This document shows, one piece after another, positions 1-64,000 of a stretch of DNA of 64,000 nucleotides. The notes beneath the pieces are model-generated. The model did not search any database, was not told the origin of the DNA, and worked only from the letters and a program-made list of their open reading frames with translations. Location of the stretch: positions 2,356,001-2,420,000 of the forward strand of contig NW_027331831.1 of assembly GCF_033568475.1 (NCBI RefSeq), written 5' to 3'. The translations under genes were made by a program, and so were the position numbers. Origin of the DNA: Henckelia pumila. Its lineage: Eukaryota > Streptophyta > Magnoliopsida > Lamiales > Gesneriaceae. Within the stretch, counting starts at the first letter, position 1, and every line of letters starts with the position of its first letter.

Positions 1-496
1 GAGGCAGTGTGTTGGCTTAAAGTTGGGCGCTCGCGCGGTAGAAAATTACCGCCCGAGCGCACCTTCTGCAGAACTAACAGTCACGACTGTTTCTGGCATT
101 TTTCTGTCATGGGTTGCATCCTTACGCCTTAAAACGTGTTGTTTCGTGTATAACACTATATATATGGTGGTTATAACATGGAAATCATACACAGAAACAT
201 CTGATAACATACATTTCAGATTTCTGATTCTCAAAATCTCTCCCTCACTTTCTCAAAGAAAAGTAAAAGCATATTTTCGTTCGTAGAAGTTCGTGATATT
301 TGTTGTGCTGCTATATCACGATCGAAAGTCGTTGTATCTTAGAGACGATTGCCGCTAACGTTTAGCACTTGGAACGGGCAATTTCGTCTTGCGGATAGAG
401 AGTTTCTCTCGCCTTGACTGTGTTCATTATTGTCGCTGTTATTGTTGCTGCTGTTTAAACAAAGTTTTTCAGAATTCGGAATACACCCTTATAGCA
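1..496 (+). repeat. 5' LTR of first Copia element, partial
   Basis: This matches 5535-6030 base for base apart from about seven substitutions. It holds a TATA-like stretch at about 151-166 and one GC-rich palindrome at 27-60. It ends in CA, directly before the leader that carries the presumed primer-binding site. Confidence 0.93.
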
Positions 497-536
497 ATCG
501 CAAGACGAAATTCTTTGTATTTCCCGGATTCTGAAG

Positions 537-6030: not shown

Positions 6031-6701
6031 TTTTTTTTATAAACTTCTTTATAATGACTAGCTTCTCGCAAATTTTTTTTATAAAAAATAATAGTATTAA
6101 TTGAAAGAAAACATACATCCAAAATAAATAGGAGACTAAAAAATAATGTCTCTCAGGATATTGCTCTTTTCAAATGATAGATCAAACAAATTTAACTAGT
6201 GACCAAACTCATATAAAACATCAAAAACAATAAGATGAAAATTTAGAGTATGGTTGGATTAAGGCATCTGAAATCATAAATTTTACATTCATGATTTCAA
6301 AAATACAAATCCGTTTGATTTATTTGGATTAATAATTAATAATATGTTAGCATATTTATTTATGAACAATTGTGATGAAAAAAAAATTTACTCAAAATAG
6401 CTGTCATTTTAACTGACCTAAACTAAATTGGGCTCAGCCGAGTTCTAGCATTGGGCCTGTCGGGAGTTAACAACGCTCCATTTTACCCTCACGACGTTAA
6501 ATTTAACCTTCCAATTCGGATACAGAAGTAACAGTATCCATTTCCCAAACACGGCCTTAGCAAAATTTTCCCGCCATTATTGCGAAGGTATCCCTTGTAC
6601 GCGCCAACAGAGGGAGCGTGATGCGATCGCACTAGCTCCTCGACTCTTCTTCTTCTTCTTCTTCTTCTTCTTATGCATTAAGCAAAAGAGCGATAAATCA
6701 G
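6031..6701 (+). promoter_or_regulatory. SMC6 upstream region
   Basis: This is AT-rich DNA between the Copia 3' LTR and the SMC6 ATG. Two site-II-like boxes, TGGGCT (about 6429) and TGGGCC (about 6453), lie 250-275 bp before the ATG. Boxes of this kind bind TCP factors in many plant proliferation and housekeeping genes. A CTT microsatellite at about 6645-6672 falls in the probable 5' UTR. No coding sequence is seen. Confidence 0.5.
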
Positions 6702-9700: not shown

Positions 9701-10456
9701 ATCTTGACGAAGATTTTCCATGACTATTCTGGTTTATTTCCATTTCCTCGTAGTCCTCTGCGTTTTAATTGTGTTGTGCTTTGGCGGTGCAGATTGATGT
9801 AGAGAATCCATGTGTGATCATGAGTCAAGACAAGAGCAGAGAATTTTTGCATTCGGGGAATGCGAAAGATAAGTTTAAGGTTGGAAGTTTAAATCTTCTT
9901 GTCGAATAATAACTCAAGGTGGCTAAACTTTACAAACTTCTCTGTATACGATACTCATCGATAGTTTGTTCGTTATTCATTTTGTCTGTTTATTTTTTTA
10001 TCAACTGACAAGTTGGTTGGGTTCTCTCTCTCTCTTTTTGGTGGGTAAGGCACTAGAGTAATTTTTTTACTGGCAAGTAACACAATAATTTACAGTTCTT
10101 TTTCAAGGCCACACTTCTTCAACAAGTGGATGACTTATTAAAAGGCATTGAAAAGCAGCTAAATGATGCAACTGCACTGGTCAATCATCTGGAAGAAACG
10201 CTGAGGCCAATATTAAAAGAACTTGATGAATTGCAAGAAAAAATCAGGAGTATGGAATTTGTTGAAGAGATATCGCAGCAACTGCAGTTGTTGAAGAAGA
10301 AACTTGCTTGGTCATGGGTATATGAAGCCGATAGGAAACTTGATGCGCAACAAAAGAATATTGAGAAGCTAAAAGGAAGGGTACCAACATGTCAAGAAAA
10401 AATTGATGAACAGAAGGTAAGTTGATTTATGGCAGTCTCTTGAGAATTCTTGAAGT

Positions 10457-27070: not shown

Positions 27071-28015
27071 TAAATTTTTATATTGTTAATTTGCGCTACC
27101 CGGTGGAATAAATAGGAGTTTGGAGAGAATTATTCTTAGTATACCAATATTCAAATTTTCTATTTGAAATATGTTACATGGTTCATGTCAATGAAACTTT
27201 GTCACGGTATTACGTTTAATTAAATTCAATTGTAGGAACATAATTTATTTTTAAATTTATTTTATTTAATTCCACAATGAAATATCTAACAATAATACAA
27301 TATACTTTTAAATAGTAATTGAAAAATTATTCAATATGATCACTTTTGAATTTAAATAACAATTTAATAATAATGAAGATATCCTTTCTTTTCCCGGAAC
27401 CCCAATACATAATCAGTAAAAGCCTACCGATAATTTAAATTTTCGAATGCAAAAAATATATAATATTAGACTAAAAATTTTTAGTTTTAGAAATTCTTGT
27501 TTTCATTAAATTTTATATTATAATCCAAAAATACTATGTTTCACGATGATGGTAATATAGAAAGATAACATCATACTTAGATCAAATGAGTTTTTTTTTT
27601 GTATAAAAATAAAAATTTAGTTGAATTGATTTTTTAAAATGATCAAACGAAGCTCAACTAGAGCTTATTTCAAATTCTGGCGTAGAGACAGAAAGACCCC
27701 ACATTCATAGAAGCCGTTGGGATTTCAAAGCTTCACAAAAATTTGAAGCAGAAGATTATTATCATAGACACTTTAAAATCTTCTGTTTCGTTGCGGAACT
27801 TTCAAGAAATTTTTTTTGAGCAAATAAATAAAAATACTTATTCAAAAATCACAAGAAAAAAAGAGGAAAGAATGTGCCAAATTCCGTGATTCAGAGAGAT
27901 ATATGTTGTTGGAGTCTTGCAGAGAAGACGAAGAAACGGAGCAAAAAACCAAGGCTTCCTTTCGAATTCTTGGAAGCTGAAAAGAAGAGGAAAGATTAGA
28001 GTGCAATTGCAAGCA
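27071..28015. other. AT-rich spacer and 5' flank of the F-box/LRR gene
   Basis: No coding sequence is seen up to the ATG at 28016. The upstream in-frame codons back to 27917 carry no ATG and are probably 5' UTR. Confidence 0.5.
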
Positions 28016-29725
28016 ATGGCATTTTCACCTGAGAAAGAAAACCAAAATTCTCTGTGGTTTAAGCACAAGAAAGCTTTGAACCATGTACTCTTCACAATGC
28101 GCCGCCATTCTCTGACCCCAAAACAAACCCAACCCCAGAATCAAAGGCAACGGCCACCTCTAACTGAATTTCCACAGCCCACCAGCAGAATCCATGATTT
28201 CCCTCTCACAAATCTTGTTTCTGATATCACTTCACTTCTTTCAGATGAAATATTGCTCAAGATTCTTGCAAGGGTGCCAAGATCTCAGAGGAATTCCATT
28301 TTCCTTGTTTCAAAGAGGTGGCTCAGTCTGCAAGGCAGGCTCGTGAGGTCCATCAAGATTCTTGATTGGGATTTTCTGGTTTCAGGTCGACTGTTCTCGA
28401 GGTTCCCTAATCTTATTCGTGTTCATTTGGTTAATGGGTGCTTGATTTCCTCAAGAAATTTTGGTGTTATTTGTACTCACAAGACTGCGTCCTTTCATGT
28501 TGGTCATGACGTTGAGATGAAAGATCGGTTTTTTAATGAAAACTCTGTGTTGGAAGCTGATGAAGTCGACAGAGGTTTAAAGATTTTGGCCAGTGGGTGC
28601 CCAAATTTGAGGAAATTAACAGTGATGAACTCGAGCGAAATGGGGATATTGAGTGTGGCTGAGGAGTGCCCCGCATTGCAAGAACTTGAGCTACATATGT
28701 GCAACGACCAAGTTCTCCGTGGAATCGCTGCGTATCAGAATTTACAGGTTTTAAGGTTAAGTGGTGCTGTGGATTGTTCTTACAATTCATTAGTTTCAGA
28801 TCTTGGATTGACTATTTTAGCACAAGGGTGTAAGAAATTGGTGAAGGTTGAGTTGAGCAGATGTAAAGGGAGTTATGAAGGGATCAAAGCTATCGGGCAG
28901 TGTTGTCAAACTCTTGAAGAGCTGATTATTTGTGATCATAGGATGGAAGATGGATGGATATTCGCACTTCCTTATTGCGAAAAGTTGAAGACATTAAGGT
29001 TTTTATTGTGTAAACAAATTGATCGGGTCTCCGGAGCTGATGAGCATTTAGGACCTTGTTCCGCCCTTGAACATTTGCATATCGAGAAGTGTCAATTAAG
29101 GGACAAGAAGGTTTTAGGGGCATTATTCGTTGCGTGCCAAAACGTGAAGGATGTGGTTCTGAAGAATTGCTGGGGAATAGATGATGATATGTTCAGCACT
29201 GCAAGCGCTTTCAGGTAATGAGATTCTTCTATTCCTTTCATGTTCAGCAAGATTTTGAAAATCTTATGTTCTGTGTTTGATTGATATCTTAACGTTTTCG
29301 ACTTCATTTATGCTGTGATCCAAGTGAAGCTGATATAATGTAAGAACAACCAAGAAAAAGAGAGTTGCATAGGCAATATGATGCCACCTAACCATATAAA
29401 AACCAATAACCAAACTTTTCTGCTGTGTACATTTGTCTAACTTGGGCTATTTTGATTCATCCGCAGGAGAGTAAGATCGCTATCTTTGGAAGGGTGCTCG
29501 TTGATAACGACGGATGGTCTGGAGTCGGTGATCATTTCTTGGAACGAACTTAAGAGCCTCAAAGTGAAATCATGTAACAATATAAAGGATTGTACTCCTT
29601 CGAGTGCTTTTTCTTCTCTCAAGGACTTGAAATGGAAGCCCGATTCGAAATCTATCCTTTCGGCTAATCTTGCAGGAACTGGAATGGGAAAGAAGAATGG
29701 GTTACAGAATTTTCAAGAGATCTAG
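28016..29725 (+). CDS. F-box protein with leucine-rich repeats (RNI-like)
   Basis: The gene has two exons, 28016-29214 and 29467-29725, joined AG|G at a GT-AG junction to give 485 residues. The F-box spans about residues 72-112 ([15 protein letters not shown], then [12 protein letters not shown]). Behind it come degenerate leucine-rich repeats (for example [31 protein letters not shown]), ending in [11 protein letters not shown] and LKSLKVKSC. Such proteins join the SKP1-CUL1 ubiquitin ligase and choose substrates through the repeats; the substrate here is unknown. The ATG at 28016 is the first in frame. Sequence and length resemble the Arabidopsis pair At5g07670/At5g51380 as I remember them. 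The gene looks intact. Confidence 0.9.
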
Positions 29726-32038: not shown

Positions 32039-33160
32039 ATGTCCAATGATGTGGAAAATCCTGAAGATGGAAAGACTTCGAATGTGCGATCAGTTCCATC
32101 TGGAACTCTATCCACTTGGTGCACCGGCTTGCTGCTGCAAGTATCGGTTTATGGAATTGCCGCGGGTTATTGCATATCTGCTTCGTTGTTATCCATAATA
32201 AATAAATGGGCTGTCATGAAATTTCCTTACCCTGGAGCTCTAACAGCGCTGCAATATTTAACCAGTGCAGGTGGAGTATTGATTTGTGGATGGCTTAAGT
32301 TAATAGAACACGATAAGCTCGATCTTCTTACAATGTGGCGCTTTTTGCCTGCTGCATTTATATTTTACTTGTCCCTATTCACAAATAGCGAACTCCTCCT
32401 ACATGCTAATGTCGACACGTTCATTGTTTTTCGCTCGGTCGTCCCCATATTTGTTGCCATTGGTGAAACCCTCTACTTGCACCAGCCTTGGCCTTCTCTG
32501 AAAACATGGTTATCCCTTGGGACGATATTTGGTGGCAGTGTGCTTTACGTCGTAACAGATTATCAGTTCACTTTAATGGCCTATAGCTGGGCATTAGCGT
32601 ATTTGGTGAGCATGTCGATAGATTTTGTTTACATTAAACATGTAGTTATGACAATTGGTTTAAACACATGGGGTCTTGTTCTGTACAATAATCTTGAAGC
32701 CTTGCTGTTGTTTCCTGTGGAGTTGCTTATAATGGGAGAATTGAAGAAGATAGAGCATGAAATTTCAGATGAGTCAGAGTGGCATTCTTTTCAGGTGGTT
32801 TTGCCCGTGGGATTATCGTGTCTGTTTGGTTTAGCCATCTCCTTTTTTGGGTTCTCTTGCCGCAGAGCCATATCAGCTACAGGATTCACCGTTCTTGGCA
32901 TAGTGAACAAACTACTGACCGTTGTGATAAATCTCGTCATTTGGGATAAACACTCAACCTTTGTAGGAACTGTTGGCTTGTTGATTTGCATGATTGGGGG
33001 CATTTTGTATCAACGATCTACTAGCAGCAAATCTAAACCAGCAAAAGAAGTAATAACTCAAGAGAGTGAAGAACACCAGAAGCTGCTTGAAATGCAAAAT
33101 ATTCCTGAGAACAGTGACGATAAAAAGAAAGTTGTTGAAGTGGGAGGAGGAAAATCATAG
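32039..33160 (+). CDS. GONST3: Golgi GDP-sugar transporter GONST3 (GGLT1-like)
   Basis: A single coding exon of 373 residues encodes a nucleotide-sugar/triose-phosphate translocator with about ten membrane helices, for example YGIAAGYCISASLLSIINKW near the N terminus. The GDP-sugar signature G-x-x-N-K is present as GIVNK at residues 287-291. The blocks FPYPGALTALQY, LHANVDTFIVFRS and YIKHVVMTIGLNTWG follow Arabidopsis GONST3 closely, from memory. That protein is reported to carry GDP-L-galactose into the Golgi for pectin (rhamnogalacturonan II) synthesis; substrate here is inferred from that. The C-terminal tail is charged. A pyrimidine tract and CAG sit just before the ATG, and a donor-like GAG|GTACAT lies near 31700, so a 5' UTR intron is likely. 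Confidence 0.93.
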   Translation: MSNDVENPEDGKTSNVRSVPSGTLSTWCTGLLLQVSVYGIAAGYCISASLLSIINKWAVMKFPYPGALTALQYLTSAGGVLICGWLKLIEHDKLDLLTMWRFLPAAFIFYLSLFTNSELLLHANVDTFIVFRSVVPIFVAIGETLYLHQPWPSLKTWLSLGTIFGGSVLYVVTDYQFTLMAYSWALAYLVSMSIDFVYIKHVVMTIGLNTWGLVLYNNLEALLLFPVELLIMGELKKIEHEISDESEWHSFQVVLPVGLSCLFGLAISFFGFSCRRAISATGFTVLGIVNKLLTVVINLVIWDKHSTFVGTVGLLICMIGGILYQRSTSSKSKPAKEVITQESEEHQKLLEMQNIPENSDDKKKVVEVGGGKS

Positions 33161-34459: not shown

Positions 34460-37168
34460 ATGGATGCGCAAAGAGCTTTGCTCGATGAACTCATGGGTGC
34501 AGGTTAGATGCAACTTCCTTTGAAACCCTTGTTGTTTCTATTCCGATTCGATGAGCCTTTCTCTTTCTGTTTTTAGCTTATAGTGTCTGTTTTTTTGCTT
34601 TGTTGAAAAATTTGTCACCATTTTTGTTCAATTAATTTGTAGAACATCGGTTGCTTATGACGGAACCAAATTTGAGCGTTACATTAAGAATTTTCGTGAA
34701 CATGAATTGACTTTGCTTAATGAAACCTATTGCATCTTGATTGTCTGGTCCATGGTTACTTTATTTTTTAGCGGATTACAGATTCCATGTATTTTCAGAA
34801 TCCCTACATTTTGCTGTGTATTTTTTTTTCAAGATGTTCTGTTTCAGTTTACCCTGAACTTATGGTTGCTATTGAATGGTCATTGATAGCTCAACAATTT
34901 TCCATGGTTTTTGCAGCACGAAATTTGACCGATGAGGAGAGAAAAGGTTACCGCGAAATTAACTGGGACGACAAGGAAGTTTGTGGATTCTATATGGTTC
35001 GATTTTGCCCTCACGATTTGTTCGTCAACACTCGTAGTGATCTAGGTGCAGTTTCTAACATTTCATTCCTTACACCCTTTAATCTTTATTGCAATTTTTG
35101 GTAGGAAATTCAATTGAAGATTTTAACCAAAGACATTTATTTTTTATTTGAATGATTTATCATTTCTCGGTGAACAAACCAAAGTTATTCCTTTTATTTT
35201 TGCAACTATTTAACTGTTGTATTTATTTTCAGTTCCATGTTATGCTTACAAGTCATTTTTGTGTCTGTTGCAACAGGATTGTGCCCAAAGATTCATGATC
35301 CAAAATTGAAGGAAAGGTAGTGAATGGTTTATCGATCTAGAATTTTTTGTCACGATGATTTTCCAGTGATTATGTTCTTGGTTAATTGAGTAAGCTTGAA
35401 AATAGTTAGATGTTGAACTTCTTCAACTTTTCATTTCGAACAAATTAAATCTCCATTTAAATTTTTTTTAATTGTAGATTATTCATGTGTATTAACTGTT
35501 TATACCATAAACCTGTAGATTCCCATGCATTTCTTGCCTCACGCCTCTCTAGGGATCCTTGTGCAGTTCTTGCCTCGCGCCTCTCTTTAATTTAATTGTT
35601 GTTATATTAGTTGATAATCATTTCACAAAATGCTGGCTTATTCAAGAAGAATTGTATTAGCTACCTGTTGGAATTAATTATTTTACTGTCTTCACAAATC
35701 TGAAGTTAAGCATGCATGAGCTCTCGAGGCATCATATATTTATTTTTGCGTCATAAGCATAATTGTATTTGCCACTGCATGTATGTTGTTTCTCTGTGTT
35801 TGTGTCCACAATTGTGCCAGCAGTCCCAGTTCAAACTACTAATTGAGGTGATTCCATGGTCCATGGTCCATGTATGCTTTGATACAACTTTAATCTATTA
35901 ACTAGAGGACTCTGAAAAACTGGATACATGGGCATTGATGTGATTCCTTTTATAATTTTTTTGACCAGTATCATGCTTATTGTCTTATTCCACAATTGTG
36001 ATGAGATTTGTTTCTCTCTTATAAGTTTTGAGAACTCCCCAAGACATGATTCACATGTGCCCAAATTTGAAGCTGAACTAGCCCACTTCTGCGAAAGACT
36101 GGTAAGTTTCCAATTCAACACTTATGAAGTTCAATGACTCAATAGATTCACATGATGTGACCTTATTTTATGTTAATTTTTAGGTTTCAGACTTAGATAG
36201 AAGAGTTAGACGTGGCCGTGAGCGCCTTGAACAAGATGTTGAAGTCCCTCCTCCACCTCCGATTTCTGCTGAAAAATCTGAGCAGTTGTCTATACTGGAA
36301 GAGAAGATAAAAAACCTACTTGAACAAGTTGAGTCTCTTGGTGAGGAAGGGAAGGTTGATGAAGCTGAGGCCCTCATGAGAAAGGTGTTTTAAGTTTATT
36401 CATTTATTATCTGCTATTTCCTTTTCAATCTTAAAAGAGTTTCTGGGCTAGACCTGCTGACTCTGAGTGCCATGCTTTTCAGGTCGAGATACTGAATATT
36501 GAGAAGACAGTTCTGACTCAGCAACCACAGCAGGATAAACTGTTACTGGCTGCGCAGGAGAAAAAGATGGCTCTATGTGAAATATGTGGTTCCTTTCTGG
36601 TGGCAAATGATGCCGCAGAGAGAACTCAGTCACATGTCACTGGTAAGCAGCATATGGGCTACGGCATGGTTCGTGACTTTCTGGCTGAGCATAAGGTTCG
36701 TATGTTACGTGTTATGTTTCAATGGAGAGTAATGTAATTACACGACGTTATATATACATAACCCATACTCTTTATACCCCATTTGTGAATTTATACAATC
36801 ACCAGGCAGCCAAGGAAAAGGCAAAAGAAGAAGAAAGATTGTTAAGGGAGAAAGAAGTTGAAGAACAGAGGAAGAAACGGGATCGAGAACATGAGAGCAA
36901 ACACAGAATTGACTCAGCTGACAGGGACAGGTATCGAGACAGGGAGAGGGACCGACTACGAGAACGGGATCGTTATCATGAGAGATCTCGTGAAAGGAAC
37001 GGCAGAGGAAGCCGAGATGGGGGAAGGGTATCCGATTTTAAGTACAATAGTTCGAGGAATGGAAGGGAAGGAAGTAGAGATAGATATAGAGACCGTGACA
37101 GAAGCAGATCTCGCTCCCCCATCAGGCATGGTAACAGGAGGTCATCCAGGAGTCCTGTTCGTCGTTAA
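34460..37168 (+). CDS. LUC7RL: LUC7-related U1 snRNP protein
   Basis: Seven exons (34460-34502, 34917-35045, 35277-35316, 36026-36101, 36184-36384, 36483-36695, 36806-37168) give 354 residues in one frame. LUC7 proteins belong to the U1 snRNP and help 5' splice-site choice in the nucleus. Zinc finger 1 is C37-x7-C45-x14-C60-x3-H64. A coiled-coil-like charged stretch follows, then finger 2 at 195-220 (CEIC ... HVTGKQH). The C-terminal third is rich in Arg, Glu, Asp and Ser and ends in SRSRSP and SRSPVRR, an RS-type tail. The start MDAQRALLDELMGAARNLT fits the plant LUC7-related (LUC7RL, At5g51410-like) branch rather than LUC7A/B, judging from memory. Confidence 0.92.
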
Positions 37169-39841: not shown

Positions 39842-40838
39842 ATGGCGTCTTCACTGGCCTTGAAGAAGCTCGTTTCCTCCGGTATCCTCTCGAGGTCCCT
39901 ACGTCCACTGCGTGCGGTGGCTCAGCCGACCTCCTCGCGGCTCTTCAACTCCAACGCCGTCCGTGAGTACGATAGCGATGAACGTGACATTGATATTGAA
40001 CGTTATCGACCGGATCGCCGCGTGTTCTTACCGTTTTCAGGTAATTATTTTTATTTGACGAGCCTTCTTCTGTCGCATAATGAGGAGCTCTATACGTGAT
40101 GCTGGAACCTCTGTTTCGTGTTGCTGTTTTTGCGGGTGGTTGGTTAGTATTGCCGTATTTAGATGATTTCAGCTGACTGTCGTTTATTTTCAGCATTTCT
40201 AGGTCTTAGGAGGTAAATTTTAATTATATCAGTTGGTATTATTCCTGCTCGCATATTCTCCTCTGTTTGGTAATGAAATTCTTGTGTTACCCTGACGAAA
40301 CGGCTTGTGAATTTTTAGATTTTGTTGCGGATACAGTGAGCTTTTGAATTAAATGTGTGATGGAAGTAGTAGGAATTAGAGAACTCTTTGTTTGTTTTCA
40401 TGGAAATCGAATAACGTCCGCAAGCATGGTATGAGTGCAGATTTTTTCAGCCCATTCTCATCACGCAGTAGCCTGAGCCAAATCCTGAACATGATTGATC
40501 AAGTTGTGGAATCCCCTGTAACTTCGAGCTTCAGAAGAAACTGGGACGCTAAAGAAACAGCTGACGGTCTTCATCTGCGTGTGGACATGCCTGGTCTGAG
40601 CAAGGAGGAAGTCAAAGTATCGGTGGAGCAGAGCACTCTGATCATCAAAGGCGAGGGCAAGAAAGAGTCCGAAGAGGAAGAGACTGTGCAGAGGTACAGT
40701 AGCAGAATCGATCTTCCCGAGAAACTTTACAAGACTAATGAGATCAAAGCCGAGATGAAGAATGGGGTTCTCAAAATTTTCTTGCCCAAGATCAAGGAAG
40801 AGGAGAGAAGTGATGTTTTCAGTGTGAATGTTGAGTAA
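39842..40838 (+). CDS. Mitochondrial small heat-shock protein (HSP22/23.6 class)
   Basis: Two exons, 39842-40040 and 40441-40838, give 198 residues. The N terminus (MASSLALKKLVSSGILSRSL, later SRLFNSNAVR) is rich in Ser, Leu and Arg with few acidic residues, as in mitochondrial targeting peptides. The alpha-crystallin domain covers roughly 100-195, with WDAKETADGLHLRVDMPGL, RIDLPEKLYK and the consensus AEMKNGVLKIFLPK. Such proteins hold unfolding matrix proteins during heat. The single intron falls between the presequence region and the core, as I recall for this class. The gene appears intact. Confidence 0.92.
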
Positions 40839-41287: not shown

Positions 41288-42385
41288 TCACTTGAGAAAC
41301 CCACAAATAGCGCTAATCTCCCTGTCTACACAACAAGCTTGACATTGCAACTCTTCATCCATATCCCTCCACCCAGATCTCCAGTGATTTTGATGTCGCG
41401 TTTGGCAGAAGACGAGATGCGGATTCAAATTGGGATACTTCACCCACATTCGCCTCAAACATTCCGTCAAACTTTCACGATACAAAGCCAATTTTCTTCT
41501 CAGCCATCTTGGCTTTTGCATGTTACTAATCATATCAATACCCTTGTCTTTAAACCTGTCATCGCCACTCAAAATCAGCATGATGCAAGTGAGATAAAGC
41601 GCACCTACATGCCTTGCATCCACAGCCTTGAGTAGGTATTTGCAAGCTGATTCCATGTCTCCACGGTTGAAGTAGTCCAACTGAATAAAAAAAAATTGAA
41701 AATCAATGTATATAAATATGTGTGCATGCAGTATGTAATTTTGGCTCAATTATTGCATGATATATAAGCCAAAGGAGACCAACAATAATTCAATCGCTTA
41801 ATCATATACAAAATACTAAATAAACTCACCATCGCTTGTCGATAAAACAATTCGGGATTTTCCGAATTCCAGCATTTGTTCAAGAAAACTTGTTGCTCTT
41901 GGCTCAAAGGCGTCCAAGAATCTATAAACTTCTTGTTCAGGGACATATGATGGTATACATGGGAATCCTCACCGATTTCTTTGAAAGTTTTACAACTGTG
42001 TAAGAAACACGGTGTTAATCATTATAAGATCACTTATAAAACAACAACATATAGCACGTATAACTTTAGAAAACCTAGATGGATTATTGGTTCAGTTTTT
42101 AAGGGAAAAGATTTTGAATTTCATAAGAAAAATACATTAATTTGTCTTCAAAATCTTGGATTCGCGGCTTTTTAGGATCAAATTATATAACCTTATAAGA
42201 ATCATGCGCATGCATATATATATATACCTCAATTTGGCGTTGATTATATCGATAATCGAAGATGCTGCTACTCGACCCAAAACTTCACTGACCAATTCAT
42301 TCGGAAGTGTTTCGATTCTTGAAAGGATACGTTGAATTTTTCCGGAATATTGCCTGGGCATGGGTCTCCTCTTCATTCTTGGCAT
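41288..42385 (-). CDS. F-box protein with Sel1/TPR-like segment (At1g67623/At2g35280 type)
   Basis: Three exons on the - strand (42385-42228, 41995-41830, 41680-41288) give 238 residues. The F-box is at about 25-62 (IETLPNELVSEVLGRVA ... AKLRSCKTF). A tandem-helix Sel1-like segment follows (FNRGDMESACKYLLKAVDARHVGALYL). The C terminus keeps a Cys pattern, VFC ... ELQCQACCVD ... SAICG, typical of this plant subfamily. These are presumed SCF ubiquitin-ligase subunits with unknown substrates. The start ATG at 42385 was chosen because the frame upstream of it has no ATG. Confidence 0.85.
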
Positions 42386-48226: not shown

Positions 48227-51200
48227 ATGATATCAAAGCTCTCTGGTGTATGCCAATAAAACTATCCTAACCCTACTACACGCAGCCGCCGCCGCCCTCT
48301 TTCTCCACCGCGCCGACCGCCGCCGTTTCCTATGGCAACCACCACCTATTCCGCTGCTGCTCCTGTTACTCCGATCTCCTTCAATGCTGCTGCTCATGCG
48401 CCCTTGAAGCTCACCTCTTCCAACTTTCTCTCATGGCGACTGCAGTTCACGACCCTTCTTACTGGTCATGATCTGCTTGGATTTGTTGATGGTTCTCATC
48501 CCTGTCCACCCAAAAGCGTCACCACAACCACCTCTACTACATTGAATCCTGAGTACACCGCATGGATCCGCCAGGATCAACTAATTTTGAATATTATCAT
48601 TGGATCAATGACTCCCTCATTGATTCTATTTATTGCAACTGCCACCACCTCTGCAGCCGCTTGGAACACCATCACACTCACTTATGGCAAGCCCTCCCGT
48701 GGCCGCATAACTCAGTTAAAGACGCAACTTCGCAATCCTGTGAAGGGTTCTCAGTCCATAACCGAATTCATGCAGTTCATAAAATCCAAAGCCGATGAAC
48801 TGGCTCTCATGAACTCACCAGTTGACATCGAGGATCTTACGATCAAAGTTCTTTATGGTCTGGATGATGATTATAAAGAACTTGATCATGCTATTCAGGC
48901 TCGTGATTCTGCAATCTCGTTTGAGGAACTGCATGATAAACTCCTCAATCATGAAGCGCATCTTACTGCTCGTTGGGACACTCATCTCACCCTTCCAGCC
49001 ACCGCCAACACGTCTACCCGATCGGGTGGCAGCTACCATCGTTCGTCGCCCGTCCCGCCTCCACCTTCCGTCTCGTCTCCCCACCAAGTCCGCCAACCGG
49101 GAGGCTGGGCTTCACGGCAGCCGCCGCCATCCTACCAATCGGCAAACGGCCAGCATGTTCCCTGCCCCTATCTTGGGCGCTGTCAGCTTTGCGGTCGTTA
49201 GGGACATTCCGCTAAACGTTGCCCGGATTTTACTTATCTGCCAGCACCTGCAGCATCCTCTGGGCAGTCGTATTCTACATCTGGTCCATCTCCTCCACCA
49301 GCTGCTTACTCACTTGCCTCACCTTCTCCGTCTGACTGGATCCTTGACTCCGGTGCAACTCATCATGTGGCCTCTGATCTTGCAAACTTTTCCCTTCATG
49401 ACACTTACGTAGGTTCTGATGGTGTCATTGTTGGTGATGGCACTGGTCTTCCCATCACCCACATAGGTTGTCTCTCACCGCCCTTTAACCCTGCTTCTCT
49501 TCACTTTACTTATGCCTTGTGTGTGCCGTCCATTACGAAGAATCTTTTATCCGTTTCACAACTTTGTAAATCTAATGACGTCTTGGTTGTTTTCTCTTCC
49601 TCTGCTTTTCAGGTGAAGGACCGTCGCACCGGGGCAATTCTCCATCAAGGTCCACTTAAGAACGGTGTCTACTCCTGGTCTGAGCGTCCATCGTCATCAC
49701 CATTGGCTTTTACTTCCTCTGTCGTGTCTCTGCCTGTCTGGCATCATCGTTTAGGTCATCCATATGATCGAGTCCTGCGCCACTTAGTGGTGTCAAAATC
49801 GTTGTCATCCTTTAATTTTTCGTTGCGTCAGTTTAATTGTAACTCTTGCAAGTGTAATAAAAGTCATAAATTACCTTTTCATGATTCTTCTTTATCATCC
49901 CAATTTCCTCTTGAACTTTTATTTTCTGATGTCTGAACATCTCCTATTACCTCATGTGATGACTATAAATATTATGTTATTTTTGTTGATCACTACAGCA
50001 AATATATCTGGCTTTACCCTTTAAAACATAAGTCGGATGTTCTCTCTGTGTTTTGGTGTTTCAAGTCCCTAGTTGAAAAACGTTTTGGTCGTCTCATCCT
50101 CACTCTTTACACTGATAATGGTGGTGAATTCCTCGCTCTCAAAGACTTCCTTAGTCAGCATGGAATTTCTCATCTCACTACTCCTCCCCATACTCCCGAA
50201 CACAATGACTTCTCTGAACGCCTTCATCGTCATGTTGTTGAGACTGGTCTAGCACTTCTCCATCATGCGTCTGTTCCCACTAAGTTTTGGCCCTTTGCCT
50301 TGGCCACCGCGGTTTACCTCATAAATCGAATGCCCAAACGCAACCTGTCTTACAAGTCCTCTTTCGAGCGCTTGCTTGGTGCCCCTCCCAATCTCTCTAA
50401 ACTTCGTATCTTTGGTTGTCTTTCCTACCCCTGGCTTCGTCCATATTCTCCCCACAAAATTACCTCGCGCTCATCCCCTTGTGTCTTCCTTGGTTACTCT
50501 CTCACTCAGAGTGTTTATCTGTCTTACGAGCTCTCTTCTGGCAAAATATACGTCTCGCGTCATGTTGTCTTTGTCGAGTCTGAATTTCCCTTTGCCAGTG
50601 GTGGTTCTGGTGTTGGCTCGTCTCTGAGTGTGCCGTCTGATGTGCCGATGGAGGACTCCCTGGTTGCTGATCCTTCACTACCTTATCCCTCTGAACCATG
50701 CACTGCGCCCCCCATCTGCACCCCTGCTAACCCAATCCCGACCCCTCCTCCTATCCCGTCCGAACCACCACCCCTGCCAAACCCCATGGTCGAGCCACCT
50801 ACCCATACATCCCCCACTCATCCTATGGTCACCCGGTCCAGAAACAACATCTTCAAACCAAACCCACGTTTTGCCCTCGCGGTTATTCCTGACTCCACTG
50901 CATCTGAACCCACCACTTATACTTCTGCGCTCAAGGACCCGCGCTGGCGTGCCGCCATGTCTGACGAGTTTGATGCTCTTATTCGCAATCACACATGGGA
51001 TCTTGTTCCCTCTTACGTCTCTCAAAATGTGGTCGGTTGCTAATGGGTGTTTCGGATTAAATGAAAATCGGATGGCTCTGTTGATCACTACAAGGCTCGC
51101 CTTGTTGCGAAGGATTTTCATCAGCTTCCTGGTCTTGATTACTTGGATACTTTTAGTCCTGTGGCGAAACCCACTACTGTTTGCATTCTCCTATCTCTGG

Positions 51201-52448
51201 CTGTCTCCAATGGGTCGTCTATTCGTCAAATGGATGTTAACAATACATTCCTGCAGGGTGATCTGGCCGATTGTGTTTATATGGCGCAACCGCCTGGTTT
51301 TGTTGATACTTCGCTCCCCACCTATGTTTGTAAATTGAACAAGGCAATCTATGGTCTCAAACAGGCACCGCGCGCTTGGTACACTGCGCTTCGTCAGTTT
51401 GTACTCAGTGTTGGCTTCACTTGCTCTCTTGCTGACACCTCTCTATTTGTTTTTCGCTCTAGCAGCATTACTATGTATATTCTTGTCTATGTTGATGATC
51501 TCATTCTCACAGGAAATAATTCTGGTGCTCTTCAGACCTTCATTGATCGCCTCAGCAGTCGTTTCTCTGTCAAGGATCTGGGTTTCTTATCTTATTTTTT
51601 AAGTGTGGAGGTTGCTCCCTATGAAGGGGGGCCTTTGTCTATCGCAGAAAAAATATCTACTTGATTTTCTCACTCGCACGAACATGGTTGACTCCAAACC
51701 AGTTTCTACTCCGCTTGCCACATCGACGTCTCTGCACCTGCTGGACAGTTCTCCCCCTGCTGATGCTACACTGTATCGTCAAACAGTGGGCAGTCTGCAG
51801 TATCTATCTTTTACTCGTCCCGACATTGCCTTTGCTGTCAACAAGTTATTACAGTTCATGCACTCGCCTTCTTCCATTCACTGGGGTGCAGATAAACATC
51901 TCATACGCTACTTAAATGGTACACGTTCCTATGGTCTACTTCTTTGGAAAATTTCCTCTCTGGTTTTGCATGCCTATTGTTATGCGGATTGGGCTGGTGA
52001 TCTTGATGATCGCACTTCCACTGGTGCATATATTGTGTTCTTGGGCTTTACTCCTATCTCAGCTCCAAAAAACAAGGAACTGTTGCTCGCTCTTCTACTG
52101 AGGCTGAATATCGTGTCATTGCCTCTACAGCTGCCGAAATCCAATGGGTTCGATCGCTTCTTCACGAACTTGGGGTTGATATTGGGTCCTCCACAGTTTC
52201 TATATACTGTGACAACATTGGGGCTACGTATCTCTGTGCTAATCCTGTTTTTCACTCCCGCATGAAACATATTGCCTTGGATTACCACTTTGTTCGAGAG
52301 TTTGTTCAGAGTAATCAAATTCGATGTTCTCATATCTCTTCTTCTGATCAGCTGGCTGATGCTCTAACAAAGCCACTTTCCAGTACACGACTGCGTCTAC
52401 TTTGTTCCAAGATTGGTGTCTCTATGAGCTCACCATCTTGAGGGGGCC

Positions 52449-52608: not shown

Positions 52609-55147
52609 AACCATCATCATTTTGATTTTTGGGTATGTACTAAAACCCTTATAATATATAGTAGCATGCAAATTATACATACTAGAAATATGTATAAAAC
52701 TACAGACAGACTAAAGCAGAGAAGAGAAATTTCGGGTCCGTTTGAGTACTTTAAAAACTTTTTAGCATTTTATAAATGAAAAAAAAAACAAACTTAAAAT
52801 GTGTTTAGACAAGATTTTGATAAAATATTTTTGAAAAATGTTTTTCAAGTATACTTTTTAAATAAAAATTGAGATTTATTTTATAGTATTTTTAGAATTA
52901 ATGAAAGCAATGTAAGACAAAACATACTACTTTTTAATTGTAAAAACGTTTTTACAGAATAGTTGTCCAAAAATATTTTTCTTAAAACAATTTTAAATAT
53001 TTTATAAAAAAAAATAAAAAAACACTTTTATAAAAACATTTGATATATAAGTATATCATATATAGCTTACAATAAACTATGACTCTCTCCCAATTTTTGT
53101 TCTTCGTTTGAGGGTGTCAACTGTCAACTATCAATAGATAAACTCATAAAAATTAATATTATTTCTACATCCTTGCACACACAATAAAAACTCAATTTTA
53201 TTGAGAAGAAGCATCTGGACATTTTAATTTTTTTTCCCTCCAATATTAATTATTAGCTCTGAGTAGCATTCCAAGGTATATGTGAAGTAAACATAAATCC
53301 ATTTTCACCTTTTTACATTGAATTAAGGTGAGAATTTGCATCAAACACGGCTGAAATTTGGAGAAATACAAGTGGACAAGAAGATGGGGCTATCGTTTTT
53401 AGGTTTAAGGGATCACAACATTTTACTTTAAATCGACACTTTTTGCTAAATGTTGTCATCATGTTTCTTGAATTCTCAATATTAAATTTTAAATTTTGAT
53501 TTAATTAAATGCACCTATGGCTGTGAAGCAGTTAAAAGAGTTCGACAGTAGGTCTATATGGGACGAGTAGACACACTCACATTATATATATATATTATCA
53601 CGTGAATTTAAATATTACTATGTCGGGTCATTTTATTTTGTTTTTTGAATATGAGAGGAGTTTGTTATAACAATGAATATATCAGTCTCAAATTGATCGT
53701 ATCTCATACTGATCAAATTTAAGATTTTGGTGTCATATGGACATGAAAGTCATTGACTTACTGATCAAATTTAAGATTTTGGTGACATATGGACATGAAA
53801 GTCATTGACTTATGTCAAAGTTGAAGTTGCTATCATTAACCAAAATTAATTTGTTACTATATTATATAAATTAATGGGGACAATACATGAAAAAATGGTG
53901 GAAGCAAGTAGGGGTTACTTTATAAGAAAGTTACACATGGAATTAATTTTTATCCATTGAAAACTGATACATGTGAAATGCAAACGGACGAAGAGTAAGA
54001 TATGTACATTGGAGTCAGATTCAAGCAGGAGAAGACAAATAGAATGTGTGAAGTAAATTAATTAACAACTGCACATTAATCAAGCAAACCAGACCAATTC
54101 ATCCAATTACAAACACGATTTAAGGAATATTTATATATATATTATTACACTTTCCTTTTTCATAATTCCTGCAACTTCGAACTTTAAAATATTGAATCAA
54201 CATATTAAAATCCGAAAATCAAGTGAATTACATTGAATTTGACCCGATGGATCTAACTTTTCAAAGATCATATATTTTTCCACGACCCAAAAAAGAAAAA
54301 CACCAAAGTCACAAACTATAAAGAAAGGGACTGTATAATTTAAATAAACAATCAAATCTTGAAACATAAATTTATTTGGAAGCCAAAAATGTAGAGCCAA
54401 CTTAATATTCGATTTTGTTGGGGTGGTGGCTTACCCATTGAATCACTAATTTGTTTTGCCTCGGAGCGGAAATGGACCCCAACACCACTGTTGCAAAATG
54501 TGCACGAGACAGCACCTCATATGAATTTAGCTCACGTCTTATCCATCACGCGATTAAATTTTGTCTTTCCATCAAATTTATAAAAACTTTCCACTTTCCC
54601 TAACATATAAATTTTAATTTGCAAAATCAAGATCTAGATTTTGAGTAGTGCATAACTAAACGGGGGTGCGGTATTTTTAGTCATGTATTAGATTCGTTGA
54701 ATCAGTTATGATATTGTTTTGATCGATTTATAATTTTAATCAATTTTCATCAGAATTATACATAATCAAGTAGTGTTTGTCAATGCTTAAAAAACAGTGA
54801 TTCTGAGTTAAGATTTAAAAAAATTATAAAAAAAAACTCATAATCACTTCTTCTTCTTCTATTTTTTTTTATAAGTATTTAACATTTTTTGAAGTATTTG
54901 TGAATACTTTCTAGGATGAAAGTCGTCATCCCAACTTATTGGGTAAATGGCAACAAAAGTAGTATAACAATTGAACTAATAATATACACTAGATTTTGAG
55001 TGTGGGGCTCCGATCCCCGTAAAACTCTCGCCTTCACTATAAAAAAAGGCCACTTCAATTCAGTCTTTCAAATCTATTGTATATTTTTGATATTTTCTTC
55101 TGGAATTTGTATTATTTCCAGAGAACACAATAATAAAATAAATTATA
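52609..55147. other. AT-rich spacer upstream of the peptide gene
   Basis: No gene is seen. There is a 52-bp direct tandem repeat at 53709-53812 and a TTC run near 54845. The last 110 bp form the promoter and 5' UTR of the peptide gene, with a TATA-like CTATAAAAAAAGG at about 55037. Confidence 0.55.
53709..53812 (+). repeat. Tandem repeat, two 52-bp units
   Basis: CTGATCAAATTTAAGATTTT and the 32 bases after it occur twice head to tail, with one substitution. Confidence 0.93.
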
Positions 55148-56687
55148 ATGATGGCTAGATCTTATTTCCTTGTTTTGTGTTTTATTTTATTCATGCATGC
55201 ATGCAAATGCAATGCTCGACCCATATGGCTGAATATTCATCATGAGATGTTTCCACCTCACCAGGTAATTTTGTTTCTGAATTTAATTTCTAAATATAAT
55301 TGATAAAGTTTATATGTGTTTAATATAATTTCTATGAGTATATATGTGATTTGGCTTGGAAAAGATTTTGTTCTCCATTCAGTTCGCAAATGGCTAGTAA
55401 AGACTGATCAAATTAAGAACAAATTTTCAGTCTTTAATATTCGTTTTTCTTGTAGTGCGAAGAACAAGTAAAAGTTGTCGATTCTTGATACAAATTTCAA
55501 ACACATTTTATTTGGTCAACTTAATATATATTATTTGAATCTAGATGAAATTTTTTCAAGTAATTGAGTTTTAGATAAAATTGGATTTGTTTTTTAAAAA
55601 AAAATAAAAATAAAAAATCGATCAGATCTATTGAGTTATATTACTTTTAATTGAAAAACATCACTTTTGTGTATGTTTATTGTTTAGTTAGTTACGTGAT
55701 CATTCTTGTTATTTTCTAAAATCAAATTCATTTATCTCTTATTTTTTTAGGGAAAAAAAAACTATCATTTGATTTTTATTCTTTTGTCCCCGAAAGAAAT
55801 ATTGTCCCCTTTTCATATTGTTAAACATATCAATTTGCTGTGATAATTATATATTCAACTCAAATTCATCGAGTTAATTAGGTCGTAATTACATGAGTTG
55901 TTGATCTTGATCCCCTCGATCAATTAATTACTTTGGATCTGAAAAATACATTGGATTTTAGCTTATGTTTTAATTTGTTCCTTTAATTAACTGGTCGCAG
56001 ATCCAAGAAAAGTTTGAACTTAACGGCAACTCGAGAGATTCGGACACCTCAAAATCAAAGGAAAAAGAAGAAATCCTTCACAAGAAATTAAATGAAGCTG
56101 GCACGAGGGATAATTCAGGTGCACTAGCTTAGCTTTCACTCAAGCCTATCGATATATACAAATCAATATTAATTAAGAAATGTTGTAATAAAAAAAACTT
56201 TGGCATGCTTTAATATTGGATCATTAATCTCGAGCTCATCTTACACCGAGAGAGCTTAACCTAAGAGTGCATTAATTCTGAATGTGTGTAGACCCTACTA
56301 AAATTTAATGCGAGAAGTCTCCCATACCCAGTTAAGAGTGCAAAAAAGTCGAGCTACTTATGTAGCCCGCGAGCAGCTTGGTCAATATTCCACTCGATCT
56401 TGATTCGATCGAGCTCGGGTGTCTAGAATATTTCTTCTAAGCCAAGTTCGAGTTTCAATTATTTGTACTTAATTGATCGAGCTCGGGTGTCTTGAATATT
56501 TCTTTCTGAGTGGAGTTCGAGTTTCAATTATCTGTACTCAACTAGTACTATATATATATGTGTGTGTGTAATTTGAAAAATAACAAATATTTTTGTCGAC
56601 ATGTATTATTCAAATAAGCGTTCGAGATCATGATCTAAATACTAAAATTCAGGATTTCAAGTTTTTTGAGCTTGAATAACTTAGTAT

Positions 56688-56732
<45 letters not shown>

Positions 56733-56877
56733 GATAGAGTTCTTTTATGGTGCCTAACAACTATGCCCAACTCCGTGCCCACCATGTATAAGTCAACTCA
56801 CCAATTGTGCTGGTCAACTCACCTATTGTACATGGTGGGCACGGAGTTGGACATAGTTGTTGGGCACCATAAAAGAA

Positions 56878-56938
<61 letters not shown>

Positions 56939-58143
56939 TCAAGCTCGAGTTTAAAATAGATTACTCAATCGAACTCAAGTAGATATATTTTATAGTGTGT
57001 CAAACTTGAGTAGCATGAACTGGAGCTCGACTCCCGTCGTTTGCACACTCTTTCTGGGTGTTGCATATAATTTTTTAAATTTTAGAGTATAAGTACAATC
57101 TTAGACCCATATTACAACCATAAAATGAAATTGCTCGCACAATCGACGGGACTTGAGCAAGTACTCGAGACTTGCTTATCTCGAGCAAAGATATTACAAA
57201 GAAACTTACCAAATCTACCTAAATAAATTAGGACAACTATCCGCAAACAATGAGAATCGAACTTGAGACCAATTGATCTCATGGCCTCAAGGTGTCGCAT
57301 ATAATTATAAACCCTGTGTGCATGCATAAATTACCTTGGATCTCTAATGTCCCGGCTGTGAACTAGATCACCACTTTTTTATTAAAATAATCAATGCAAC
57401 AAAATATTATACACCAAGAAATAACAAAAATCCAACGATAAAATCAGTACAAAATATCTATATTAGAAATGTTTAAATCGATTTTTATTTGAGATTCTTT
57501 ATATTCCCAAAGTTTTGTATTTCATCTCAACCAACTATTGGGCGTAATGCAGGGGGTGATGAAGATTGGGAGTCTTGGCTTCACAGTGCCATGATCATGA
57601 ACAAAACAAAATTAGAGGTAATTACGAATTAACTCGTTAAATTTTGTTGTTTCTTGAAAAAAAAGTTATATTAAAAATTAACCTCGTGAATTTACACTTG
57701 ACATGACATCTTTCCCCGGGGATGTGTGAGCTCGTACTGTTATTATTTTTGGAATGAATTAAATAAAGATATAATTACAAATTTGTCTAAAAACTTTATT
57801 TTTCAAATGAGTTTTCATTATCCGCGTGAAAATTATATATTTATATTAAAAAAAACATATATATATTTAGAAGGAAATGAATGATATTTTTTTTTTAATG
57901 GAAACTCGCAGTCGCTATCTTTCGATGCGTATTGAGTAAATACCCGGACTAACACAAAAAAAAAAAGTTACAATTTTGTTTATCTACAACTGAAATTCGT
58001 GACAGTATATAATGTGAATATAGGATGAAAGGGTGCCACTGCCACAACGCAAAGGAAGGGGAAAATCATCAATTTTCAGCGACGAAAATTTAACAGTGAC
58101 GGATTACGAGCCACCGCATCGGAAATCTCCCATTCACAACTAA
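55148..58143 (+). CDS. Secreted peptide-hormone precursor, GLV/RGF/CLEL family
   Basis: Four exons (55148-55264, 56001-56118, 57553-57617, 58024-58143) with GT-AG junctions and matching phases give 139 residues. Residues 1-23 are a signal peptide (MMARSYFLVLCFILFMHACK, cut probably after CNA). The middle is hydrophilic and Lys/Glu-rich, with a DEDWESWL patch near 81-88 and basic QRKGRGK at 108-114. The protein ends exactly with DYEPPHRKSPIHN (127-139). Start Asp-Tyr, Pro at 4-5 and end Pro-x-His-Asn are hallmarks of root meristem growth factor/GOLVEN peptides, in which the Tyr is sulfated by TPST and the ligand is read by RGI receptor kinases. Ser replaces the usual Pro at peptide position 9. 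These peptides act in root meristem upkeep and gravitropism. A TATA-like box lies about 110 bp upstream. Confidence 0.87.
56735..56884. mobile_element. Hairpin MITE in intron 2 of the peptide gene
   Basis: It starts ATAGAGTTCTTTTATGGTGC and ends with the near-perfect reverse complement. The arms extend about 55 bases each around a short centre. TA-rich microsatellites flank it on both sides, consistent with insertion at TA. The family is not identified. Confidence 0.85.
56881..56935 (+). repeat. (TA)n microsatellite
   Basis: About 27 uninterrupted TA units directly after the MITE. A shorter broken TA tract precedes it at about 56690-56730. Confidence 0.95.
57060..57345 (-). mobile_element. 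Possible tRNA-derived SINE fragment in intron 2
   Basis: On the - strand a segment reads CACCTTGAGGCCATGAGATC, then GGTCTCAAGTTCGATTCTCA. The latter resembles a Pol III B box (GGTTCGANTCC), and phrases like these head many plant SINEs. I could not define a clear A box, tail or target duplication. Confidence 0.35.
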
Positions 58144-58563
58144 TAAATCTAATATTTCATTTTTATTTATTACTTTTATATAGTTTTATTTCTTAATGAT
58201 ACTCTCTCTCATTGGTCATTATACTTAATCTATATGTCATACACATAACATAAGAGTGCTCTTAATTTACTCTCTTGTTTCTTTTTCATTTCCCCCGGTT
58301 TATCATGTATTTAGTGATATCCATGCTTTGATTATATATATATATATTCGAAAGTTGATTCCATTATTTGTTAGTTTATTTTGCAATAAATGACTTGATG
58401 ATGATCTTAATCCTTGGGATATCATTTCAATGACATATCCAATAATTCAAATTTATTCTTACATGTTCACACGTATGAATGAATATATAAACCATTGGAG
58501 CCGATGTTAAAACTCATAATCCAGTTATCATTTTCAAAAATAAGTTCTAAAAGTCTGGAGGTT
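58144..58563. other. 3' flank of the peptide gene
   Basis: AT-rich, with the presumed 3' UTR. No gene is seen. Confidence 0.5.
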
Positions 58564-58568
58564 GTTAA

Positions 58569-58913
58569 TGTTGGTGTGTTTAGTTTGTCCCACATCGGTT
58601 GGATGAATTGCCTGGGAGTTTTGAGTTAGGTCCTAGTCTCAATTTCTAACATGGTATCAGAGACCGGGTTCCATCGTTATGTGTTGGACGGCCCATAGTT
58701 GGCCTCACCCATCCCATAATTGGGCCACTCATTTAATTTGATCTCCACGTTCCAGTCAATTCATTCATGGACGTGCGAGGGGTGTGTTGGTGTGTTTAGT
58801 TTGTCCCACATCGGTTGGATGAATTGCCTGGGAGTTTAATATATAGGCTTGAACAAACCTCCCTCTTGAGCTAGCTTTTGAGGTGAGTTAGGTCCTAGTC
58901 TCAATTTCTAACA
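58569..58913 (+). mobile_element. TRIM (miniature LTR retroelement) with target duplication
   Basis: Terminal repeats at 58569-58651 and 58785-58913 start TGTTGGTGTGTTTAGTTTGT and end TCTCAATTTCTAACA. A tRNA-Met primer site (TGGTATCAGAGACCGGG) lies immediately after the first (58652), and a purine-rich GCGAGGGGTG lies before the second. The target duplication GTTAA is at 58564-58568 and 58914-58918. At about 345 bp and without coding capacity it fits terminal-repeat retrotransposons in miniature. The perfect target duplication suggests a moderate age. Confidence 0.9.
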
Positions 58914-59168
58914 GTTAAAACTTTACGGCGTCACGACTCACGAGCACATAAATAAACTAAGCAACTGCTCGAATGCTCAGATAATAAAGTTTTGGTGAAG
59001 CTTGGATTTACAGAATTGTTTAGAAAGGTAGACGTAAGAAATAAATCGTAGCGACATGGCAAGAAAACACTTTGGTACTAAAAAACGGGTTCCTGGATGG
59101 TGATGAAAGCTTCCGTCTTGAGTTTTACCAGGGAGAGCAGAAATACAGCACGCATGAATGAATGCCGA

Positions 59169-60664
<1,496 letters not shown>

Positions 60665-60955
60665 TATTATCCTCGGATTTCGATTTGCTTCCACAGCAGA
60701 GACACTGCAAAGGAAATTCAGAGGAAAAAACATATAAGAACGAGATTCGAATTGTCGGAAAATATATTTATCACTGAGAGCAAAGTATGTGCTCAAATGC
60801 TACCGAAGGTCGAGAGAAACGGCGGCGACGGCGGGATGATTTGTGACTCACAGTGGGCGCCGATGAAGATGATTAAAAGCCCTGACTGAACGGGCCTAGC
60901 TCGAAAGAAGCTGAAGGAAGGGCCTAAAATCTAAAATACTGGCCCATTTTCATTT
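60665..60955 (-). promoter_or_regulatory. S20 5' UTR and promoter with site-II boxes
   Basis: Read on the - strand this holds AAAATGGGCCAGTA and TAGGCCCTT, then TAGGCCCGTT. These TGGGCC/GGCCCA-type boxes are typical of plant ribosomal-protein promoters. They lie 35-90 bp upstream of the inferred first UTR exon. Confidence 0.6.
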
Positions 60956-61764
60956 AAACCAATGATTAATTAAAACATCCACGGTCTAGATTCTAGAAAA
61001 AGCCCCAAAAGACGAAATATCGAGTTTAAAATTCATTTTTTTAATAAAAGATAAATGTTTAAAATTAATTTTCACTTTAATTAATAGTTAATTAAAACAT
61101 ACACTTTCTAGAAAAAGTTTTTTGAAATGTACTATAAAATTTTAAATTCAATTATAACAACACGCCAAGAGGGTTCATTTCATTTCATCCGTACAAGTAA
61201 TGCAACGAATCCACTAAATCATGTCACTGGTTGGGTTAAGATTTTTAAAAAATGCTTAAAATTAAACCATTTTTAAAAATGAAAAAGCATTCACACAAAC
61301 GTTTTGAGTAGATCACTGCACGCCAGAAGTGGACCTCATCCTTTTAGGTGTTTTTTTAATTTTTTTAATAAAATTATTAGTACTGGATACAAGAATGGAC
61401 ATGAAAATTTTGGAGAATGACTTTCACTATAAATGTTTTTAAACATATAACATCTTCTACGTGTGTCAAATAAATTTGAAACAAATTCAATATTGAAAAG
61501 GAAAGGTACTTTTTCTTGTCCAAAAGAAGTAAAAGTAATGACATTCGAATCCACAAGGGAACCTTCCATAATATCGGAAAAAGGAGCGAGCTTTACTGTA
61601 ATGATCAACCATTACATCATTGAAAGCAACATTGATGCATCAAAATTTGTTAATAAACTTCTAAATTAACTGATTTTTGCCCAGAAAATTCGGCCCAAGT
61701 AAATGATAGAGAGGCACATCATCTTGAGTCCTCGCACCACACCTAAACTGAGTAATTTGCAAGC
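60956..61764. other. Spacer between S20 and S13
   Basis: AT-rich, with overlapping short frames on both strands near 61340-61670 that match nothing I recognise. The right end is the 3' UTR of S13. Confidence 0.5.
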
Positions 61765-63183
<1,419 letters not shown>

Positions 63184-64000
63184 GGTGGCGGAGCTCGGCG
63201 TTCACCGGCGAAAGTTGGGGTGAGAAGCTGCTGCCCGCTGCTCCCCAACTAGGGCTTAATTTTATTTTGATTTTGCTGCTGAATGACCACTTCTCAGAAA
63301 ATGGGCCAGCCCAGTTCAATTTCAACTAAGGATCGGTAATTCAGCCTTGTGTTTTAAATCATATGGGTTAGTGACTCGGGAATCCAAATTTGATCCATTA
63401 GTCGTATATTATTTTTGCATTGGTATTGGACATTGTGGTATTGTTTTTTTTTTTAAAGGAGGCATTGTGATTTGTGATGTATGCTTTGTTTTTTTTTCTT
63501 AAATAAGATTATAATAATTCCATGTAAAATTAAAGTTTATGGAGTTAGATATATTCACTAATGATATTGAATTACTTTTTGCGGTATAAAAAATTTTGAT
63601 AATGTATAATGGATTAAAATGTAATATAATAAGAAACTACTTTTGGGTTTTTCAAAAAAAAAAAAACTACTTTTGGGTATCAAAGTAATTAATCAAAAGT
63701 AATTATCATATTCAAGATATAAATAAAAATGATTTTGAATGATAATGTTAAAGAATACTATGTATATTTGTTTTAATAACTTTGAGATAATTTGATATTT
63801 TTGGGAAATAGCCACAAACATTACCCCAGCATTTCATTGAGAGGTCTGATTCGAACTAAATGAGGGACGACTAAAATTTCGACTACTTCAACTTAGGTTT
63901 GCATTTCGTTCTTTGTTTTTCCAATTTTGGAACGAAAGTGAAACTTGATTAGAGGTGTTACCAATTTTTAAATTTTTTTTTGTTTTGTTTTTCTTCGAAA
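63184..64000. other. S13 promoter and AT-rich right edge
   Basis: A GGGCCAGCCC motif at about 63303-63312 (site-II-like) lies about 120 bp upstream of the S13 ATG. Beyond about 63400 the DNA is AT-rich with no recognisable gene. Confidence 0.5.

Follow-up and report, generated by a model that had tools for sequence, protein, structure and literature searches.

A probable four-exon gene for an RGF6-like peptide hormone in a 64-kb window of plant DNA

Annotation easily overlooks short multi-exon peptide-hormone genes. The locus at 55148-58143 of the window, by which we mean the whole 64-kb stretch of DNA analysed here, raises the question of whether four small exons encode a genuine hormone precursor and, if so, to which known peptides it is related. 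The features that bear on this question are listed below.

55038..55044, plus strand: TATA-box-like TATAAAA (pattern scan), a weak candidate whose function is tentatively assigned
55148..55264, plus strand: coding exon 1, with the start codon and a second ATG at 55151; encodes the signal-peptide-like residues 1-23 and then RPIWLNIHHEMFPPHQ (translation, hydropathy)
55265..56000, plus strand: intron 1, 736 nt, GC 0.246
56001..56118, plus strand: coding exon 2, 118 nt, variable region (open in frame, GT-AG)
56119..57552, plus strand: intron 2, 1434 nt, GC 0.331, containing a long inverted-repeat element
57553..57617, plus strand: coding exon 3, 65 nt, GGDEDWESWLHSAMIMNKTKLE region (splice-site ranks)
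57618..58023, plus strand: intron 3, 406 nt, GC 0.259
58024..58143, plus strand: coding exon 4 and stop, holding RVPL, a possible SBT6.1-type RXXL site, and the peptide
58102..58140, plus strand: RGF/GLV/CLEL domain DYEPPHRKSPIHN, the predicted mature 13-mer (motif scan, peptide comparison, Pfam)

Once spliced, the four exons (117 + 118 + 65 + 120 nt) give 420 nt including the stop, that is, 139 codons plus a stop codon, and all three introns are bounded by GT and AG, with phases 0, 1 and 0. These lengths and borders agree with the original prediction, which had joined exons of 39 codons, 39 codons plus one base, 65 nt and 40 codons in frame into a 139-residue product; its placement of the peptide directly before the stop likewise holds, DYEPPHRKSPIHN forming the terminus of the precursor in the spliced frame with TAA immediately after it. 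This one CLEL motif makes up the last 13 of the 139 residues, which is the single-domain, C-terminal arrangement of RGF/GLV/CLEL precursors. At the other end, hydropathy peaks at 2.87 over residues 6-16 (11-residue Kyte-Doolittle mean), within a hydrophobic N-terminus of 23 residues. The hydrophobic core is followed by CKCNA/RP, with small residues before R24; judged by eye, this fit to a signal peptide suggests cleavage after CNA, at residue 23. The TATAAAA at 55038 lies just over 100 bp 5' of the start codon; 54600-55200 holds three TATA-like matches in all, this one included.

Splice sites were ranked within 55000-58200 using a dicot splice matrix. The donors of introns 1, 2 and 3 ranked 1, 3 and 2 of 154 GTs, the exon 1 donor (CAG/GTAATT) being the first, while the acceptors of exons 2, 3 and 4 ranked 5, 1 and 10 of 142 AGs. 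Chains that begin at an ATG, encode a hydrophobic N-terminus and end in the peptide frame were enumerated with an intron limit of 2500 nt, or 3000 nt in additional settings. A threshold of 1.0, picked after the site scores were known, returned four chains: the proposed chain from each of two adjacent ATGs (22.9) and, from both ATGs, a chain with an alternative exon 2 at 56292-56418 (21.5). It is conceivable, if rather unlikely, that the same gene and hormone are produced through another exon chain, which would leave the hormone interpretation intact. With the alternative exon 2 the chain scores 1.4 less than the proposed one; lowering the threshold to 0 admits a five-exon chain, whose additional 42-nt exon (56377-56418) takes it to 25.8, above the proposed chain, because the extra positive-scoring sites add to the sum; and both exon 2 and exon 3, 183 nt in total, could be skipped in frame, the open exon 1-exon 4 join leaving a 78-residue precursor that keeps both a signal-peptide-like segment and the hormone. 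However, the proposed chain takes the region's three best donors and is the top-scoring four-exon chain in three settings, tied only over the start codon (dropping the signal-peptide filter lets a start at 55193 draw level with both earlier ATGs). Confidence is lowest for exon 2, and the gene as a whole is well supported.

How often such a chain arises was gauged by dinucleotide shuffling of the DNA 5' of exon 4, exon 4 itself being kept, with 200 shuffles for each of three settings; the observed score was reached in none of them. At threshold 1.0 with the signal-peptide filter, any chain at all appeared in 6/200 shuffles. The figure rose to 44/200 at threshold 0 (maximum score 17.6) and to 73/200 when threshold 1.0 was kept but the signal-peptide filter dropped (maximum 16.8). 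Base composition is of little help in supporting the exons: the GC of exon 4 was attained by 59 of 2219 intron windows, that of exon 3 by 281 of 2384, that of exon 2 by 402 of 2225 and that of exon 1 by 459 of 2228.

The terminal motif is itself rare. The pattern D[YF]x7Px[HN]N-stop matched once in the six frames of the 64-kb window, which hold no other CLEL-pattern match, and in none of 60 Markov-simulated windows; from composition, about 0.001 matches to DYx7Px[HN]N-stop are expected per window. This speaks against a chance motif closing an unrelated frame, as do the Pfam match described below and the chain starting with a signal-peptide-like segment, and we regard such a coincidence as extremely improbable, even with a family signal limited to the last 21 residues and a short end, P[IRV][HN]N-stop, which alone is not rare by chance (19 occurrences across the 60 simulated windows).

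Assignment to the RGF/GLV/CLEL family, as originally proposed, is borne out by D1, Y2, P5, P10 and N13, by the C-terminal position of the peptide, by the hydrophobic N-terminus, by the length of the precursor and the presence of introns, and by a sub-cut-off match to Pfam GLV1-2 (PF21529). This match has an E-value of 0.0025 and 19.1 bits for the whole protein, and 0.00026 and 22.3 bits for exon 4 alone; both scores are under the gathering cut-off of 28.1 bits, and the match spans the last 21 residues only. The published 21-mer of Arabidopsis eCLEL6 likewise scores under the cut-off (27.4 bits), so 28.1 bits is a demanding threshold for the domain by itself. Pfam found nothing of the GLV kind in exons 1-3 or in one near-reversed decoy. 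Since the gathering cut-off is missed, we do not file the precursor as a GLV1/2 orthologue. A Pfam PIP5K match (E 0.076 and 0.041; 12.7 and 13.6 bits against a cut-off of 27) was discarded.

According to PMC8329595, D1, Y2, P10 and N13 are characteristic of Arabidopsis RGFs, while P5, H8 and P9 are described there as highly conserved rather than invariant. All four characteristic residues are present in DYEPPHRKSPIHN, which also has P5 but carries K8 and S9 in place of the highly conserved H8 and P9; in the peptides compared, K8 occurs also in RGF6 and S9 also in AtCLE18. The same source describes, in lycophytes, a Group R with a central R/K, N12-N13 and 9-18 residues past the peptide, and a Group H in which most precursors end with the peptide. 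The window peptide combines an R7-K8 core with H12, which RGF6 also has, and is followed by no tail, and thus its core points to Group R but its end does not. At 139 residues, the precursor falls inside the usual 79-182 given for RGF precursors in PMC8708909, where 203 RGF genes are counted over 24 species and introns, varied in number and length, are reported for most RGF genes. Spliced models were required in PMC4016512 to detect conifer CLEL genes, some of them alternatively spliced. An RGF gene with introns is no surprise.

To place the peptide among its relatives, its 13 residues were compared with 20 published peptides: 13 Arabidopsis RGF/GLV/CLEL and two PSY rows from the table of PMC11534595, together with four peptides of PMC8708909 and a single one of PMC5641559. 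Peptides of 15 and 16 residues were trimmed simply to 13 letters, which leaves GLV8 out of register, and the set covers neither the 12-letter SlRGF2 nor the other sulfated peptides of the PMC11534595 table. The best identities among the 20 were 10/13, 10/13, 9/13 and 9/13, which bears out the resemblance to published RGF/GLV/CLEL peptides; when the 13-mer was freely permuted 20,000 times, at most 8 residues were identical to any of these 20.

One of the two closest peptides is RGF6/GLV1/CLEL6 (Arabidopsis At4g16515, DYPQPHRKPPIHN), with 10/13 residues identical and a PHRK core and PIHN end in common. Its precursor is of similar length, with 147 residues against 139 for the window gene, and both match Pfam GLV1-2 below the cut-off. 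The window peptide differs from it at E3, P4 and S9, and its precursor stops at N13, whereas CLEL6 runs on with at least E. Also at 10/13 is DYAQPHRKPPIHN, common to six eudicot proteins in PMC8708909, which has A3-Q4 and P9 where the window peptide has E3-P4 and S9. Peach CTG134 (DYSPARRKPPIHN) is identical at 9/13 and has S3, A5, R6 and P9 as listed. The CLEL domain of AtCLE18 (At1g66145, DYESHHAHSPIHN) is likewise identical at 9/13 in the published row and shares DYE and SPIHN, but its core is HHAH instead of PHRK. From the R/K core of RGF6, the peptide is probably best labelled RGF6-like, and the locus is very likely a functional nuclear gene of a plant, encoding an RGF/GLV/CLEL peptide hormone that most resembles RGF6/GLV1/CLEL6.

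AtCLE18 carries weight for two further points. A precursor of the CLE18 type, combining CLE and CLEL domains, is not supported, a CLE domain 5' of the CLEL domain having been sought without result: the patterns P.GP.P.H and GP[DN]P.H had 0 matches in the six unspliced frames of 53500-59000, and reading through the spliced precursor revealed none. Six simple patterns searched in six frames over the same interval gave 0 matches near the gene for a second CLEL, a CLE, a PSY-like or a CEP-like domain, an additional domain of the kind that PMC4016512 describes in conifer CLEL genes with alternative splicing. The C-terminus of LjCLE34 resembles that of AtCLE18 (PMC5570945).

The second point is the serine at position 9, from which the peptide had been called a variant ligand. 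The serine is there, but the suggestion of a new kind of ligand was overstated: AtCLE18 has Ser at this position in the published row, and by our own count from the table of PMC11534595 the residue before the last Pro is other than Pro in 5/13 Arabidopsis members (RGF8 and RGF9 have R there, GLV8 has K, GLV9 T and CLE18 S), hence the window peptide is not a new kind of ligand. Neither the exact 13-mer nor PHRKSPIHN, RKSPIHN or KSPIHN was found in the literature searched, whose coverage leaves out most subscription journals and supplementary tables, so the 13-mer cannot be called unpublished; among the literature matches listed, SPIHN occurred once, in a paper with AtCLE18. The combination of a PHRK core with DYE and SPIHN might hint at a Ser9 subgroup linking the CLEL domain of CLE18 to RGF6-like ligands and having its own receptor preference, a speculation to which we give little credence. 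A Ser9 peptide could nevertheless be used to probe the role of position 9 in receptor binding.

What is seen directly is the DNA, the exon chain, the motif and the statistical support for them. By analogy with its relatives, the peptide would be secreted, processed, modified and sensed by a receptor, and any effect on growth would follow from the same comparison. According to PMC7162652 and PMC4983112, maturation begins with removal of the signal peptide, followed by an SBT6.1 cut in the variable region; TPST sulfates the Tyr after Asp, the last proline is hydroxylated, and Asp-dependent subtilases, SBT3.8 among them, free the N-terminus after the Golgi. Along these lines, the 139-residue prepropeptide would enter the secretory pathway via its N-terminal signal peptide and would undergo cleavage in its variable region by a subtilase of the SBT6.1 type, for which RVPL is a possible site. 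TPST would sulfate Tyr2 of DYEPPHRKSPIHN, Pro10 would be hydroxylated, and an Asp-dependent subtilase would release the N-terminus, the C-terminus being already fixed by the stop codon. Perception of the resulting 13-mer would then fall to RGI/RGFR leucine-rich-repeat receptor kinases; for RGF1, PMC6749341 reports that an RXR motif of the receptor recognises the last Asn and that sulfation is important for binding.

The cut in the variable region deserves comment. An RXXL or RXLX subtilase site is found in 10/11 GLV precursors in PMC4983112, and pattern search finds one RXXL site in the window precursor, RVPL at residue 103. Shuffling the variable region yields an RXXL or RXLX site in 3146 of 5000 cases, and the evidence from RVPL is therefore weak. 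The precursor has no RR pair at all, and thus neither the RRLR/RRAL sites of CLEL6 nor any other RR-type SBT6.1 site.

Several repeat elements lie in and around the gene. Intron 2 contains an inverted repeat at 56685-56932, with 107-nt arms that are 94% complementary and a 34-nt loop, whose MITE-like core (GAGTTCTTTTATGGTGCC...) is embedded in TA microsatellites, as well as direct repeats at 56407-56541 of 30 nt (97%) and 38 nt (84%), spaced by 68-69 nt. Just 3' of the gene lies a 345-bp TRIM-like element at 58569-58913. Its terminal repeats (58569-58651 and 58785-58913) begin with TG and end with CA, the first lacking an internal 46 nt of the second and being otherwise identical; a primer-binding-like TGGTATCAGAG follows the first repeat, and GTTAA flanks both sides. 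By reading, 495-4442 is an unbroken stop-to-stop frame of 1315 residues resembling a Copia-type polyprotein, and a second Copia-type element, split over several frames, occupies 48260-52441 and ends about 2.7 kb 5' of the gene.

From the 35 open frames of at least 110 residues in the window, ten were taken for a Pfam survey: seven scored above a Pfam cut-off, one (10081-10425) had below-cut-off matches only, and 60425-60799 and 36695-37168 had no Pfam match. The named frames are the following.

6636-7082: AAA_23, with a weaker SMC_N match (Pfam)
27890-29218: F-box (Pfam, 0.1 bit over the cut-off)
32039-33160: TPT (Pfam)
40380-40838: HSP20 (Pfam)
41288-41749, minus strand: TPR_27, plant family (Pfam)
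59169-59543, minus strand: Ribosomal_S10, S10/S20-like piece (Pfam)
60425-60799, minus strand: further S10/S20-like piece (by reading only)
62670-63248, minus strand: Ribosomal_S13_N, S13/S15-like piece (Pfam)

Pieces of ribosomal-protein genes on the minus strand (59169-63248) thus adjoin the hormone gene. Together with the two Copia-type elements, the frames surveyed point to plant nuclear DNA. Rfam, at gathering scores, and ARAGORN gave no match in the window. Two weak matches to solved structures, one to a methylase (E 0.18) and one to a methyltransferase (E 0.45), in a search covering chains of at least 20 residues and so no 13-mer ligand, were dismissed as chance. Pattern-matching stretches occurred in viral (12) and prokaryotic (88) contigs, and tblastn confirmed 0 as microbial or viral relatives, a result that is silent on plants.

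Repeat elements within intron 2 and just downstream would suit a pseudogene or an unexpressed relic of an RGF gene, but the unbroken frame and the canonical splice sites, highly ranked within their region, make this improbable. We instead consider the gene to be probably functional and an ordinary addition, of RGF6-like type, to the known RGF/GLV/CLEL family. Found by reading the sequence alone, it provides a useful positive control for such reading and adds a further probable RGF6-like ligand from a plant.
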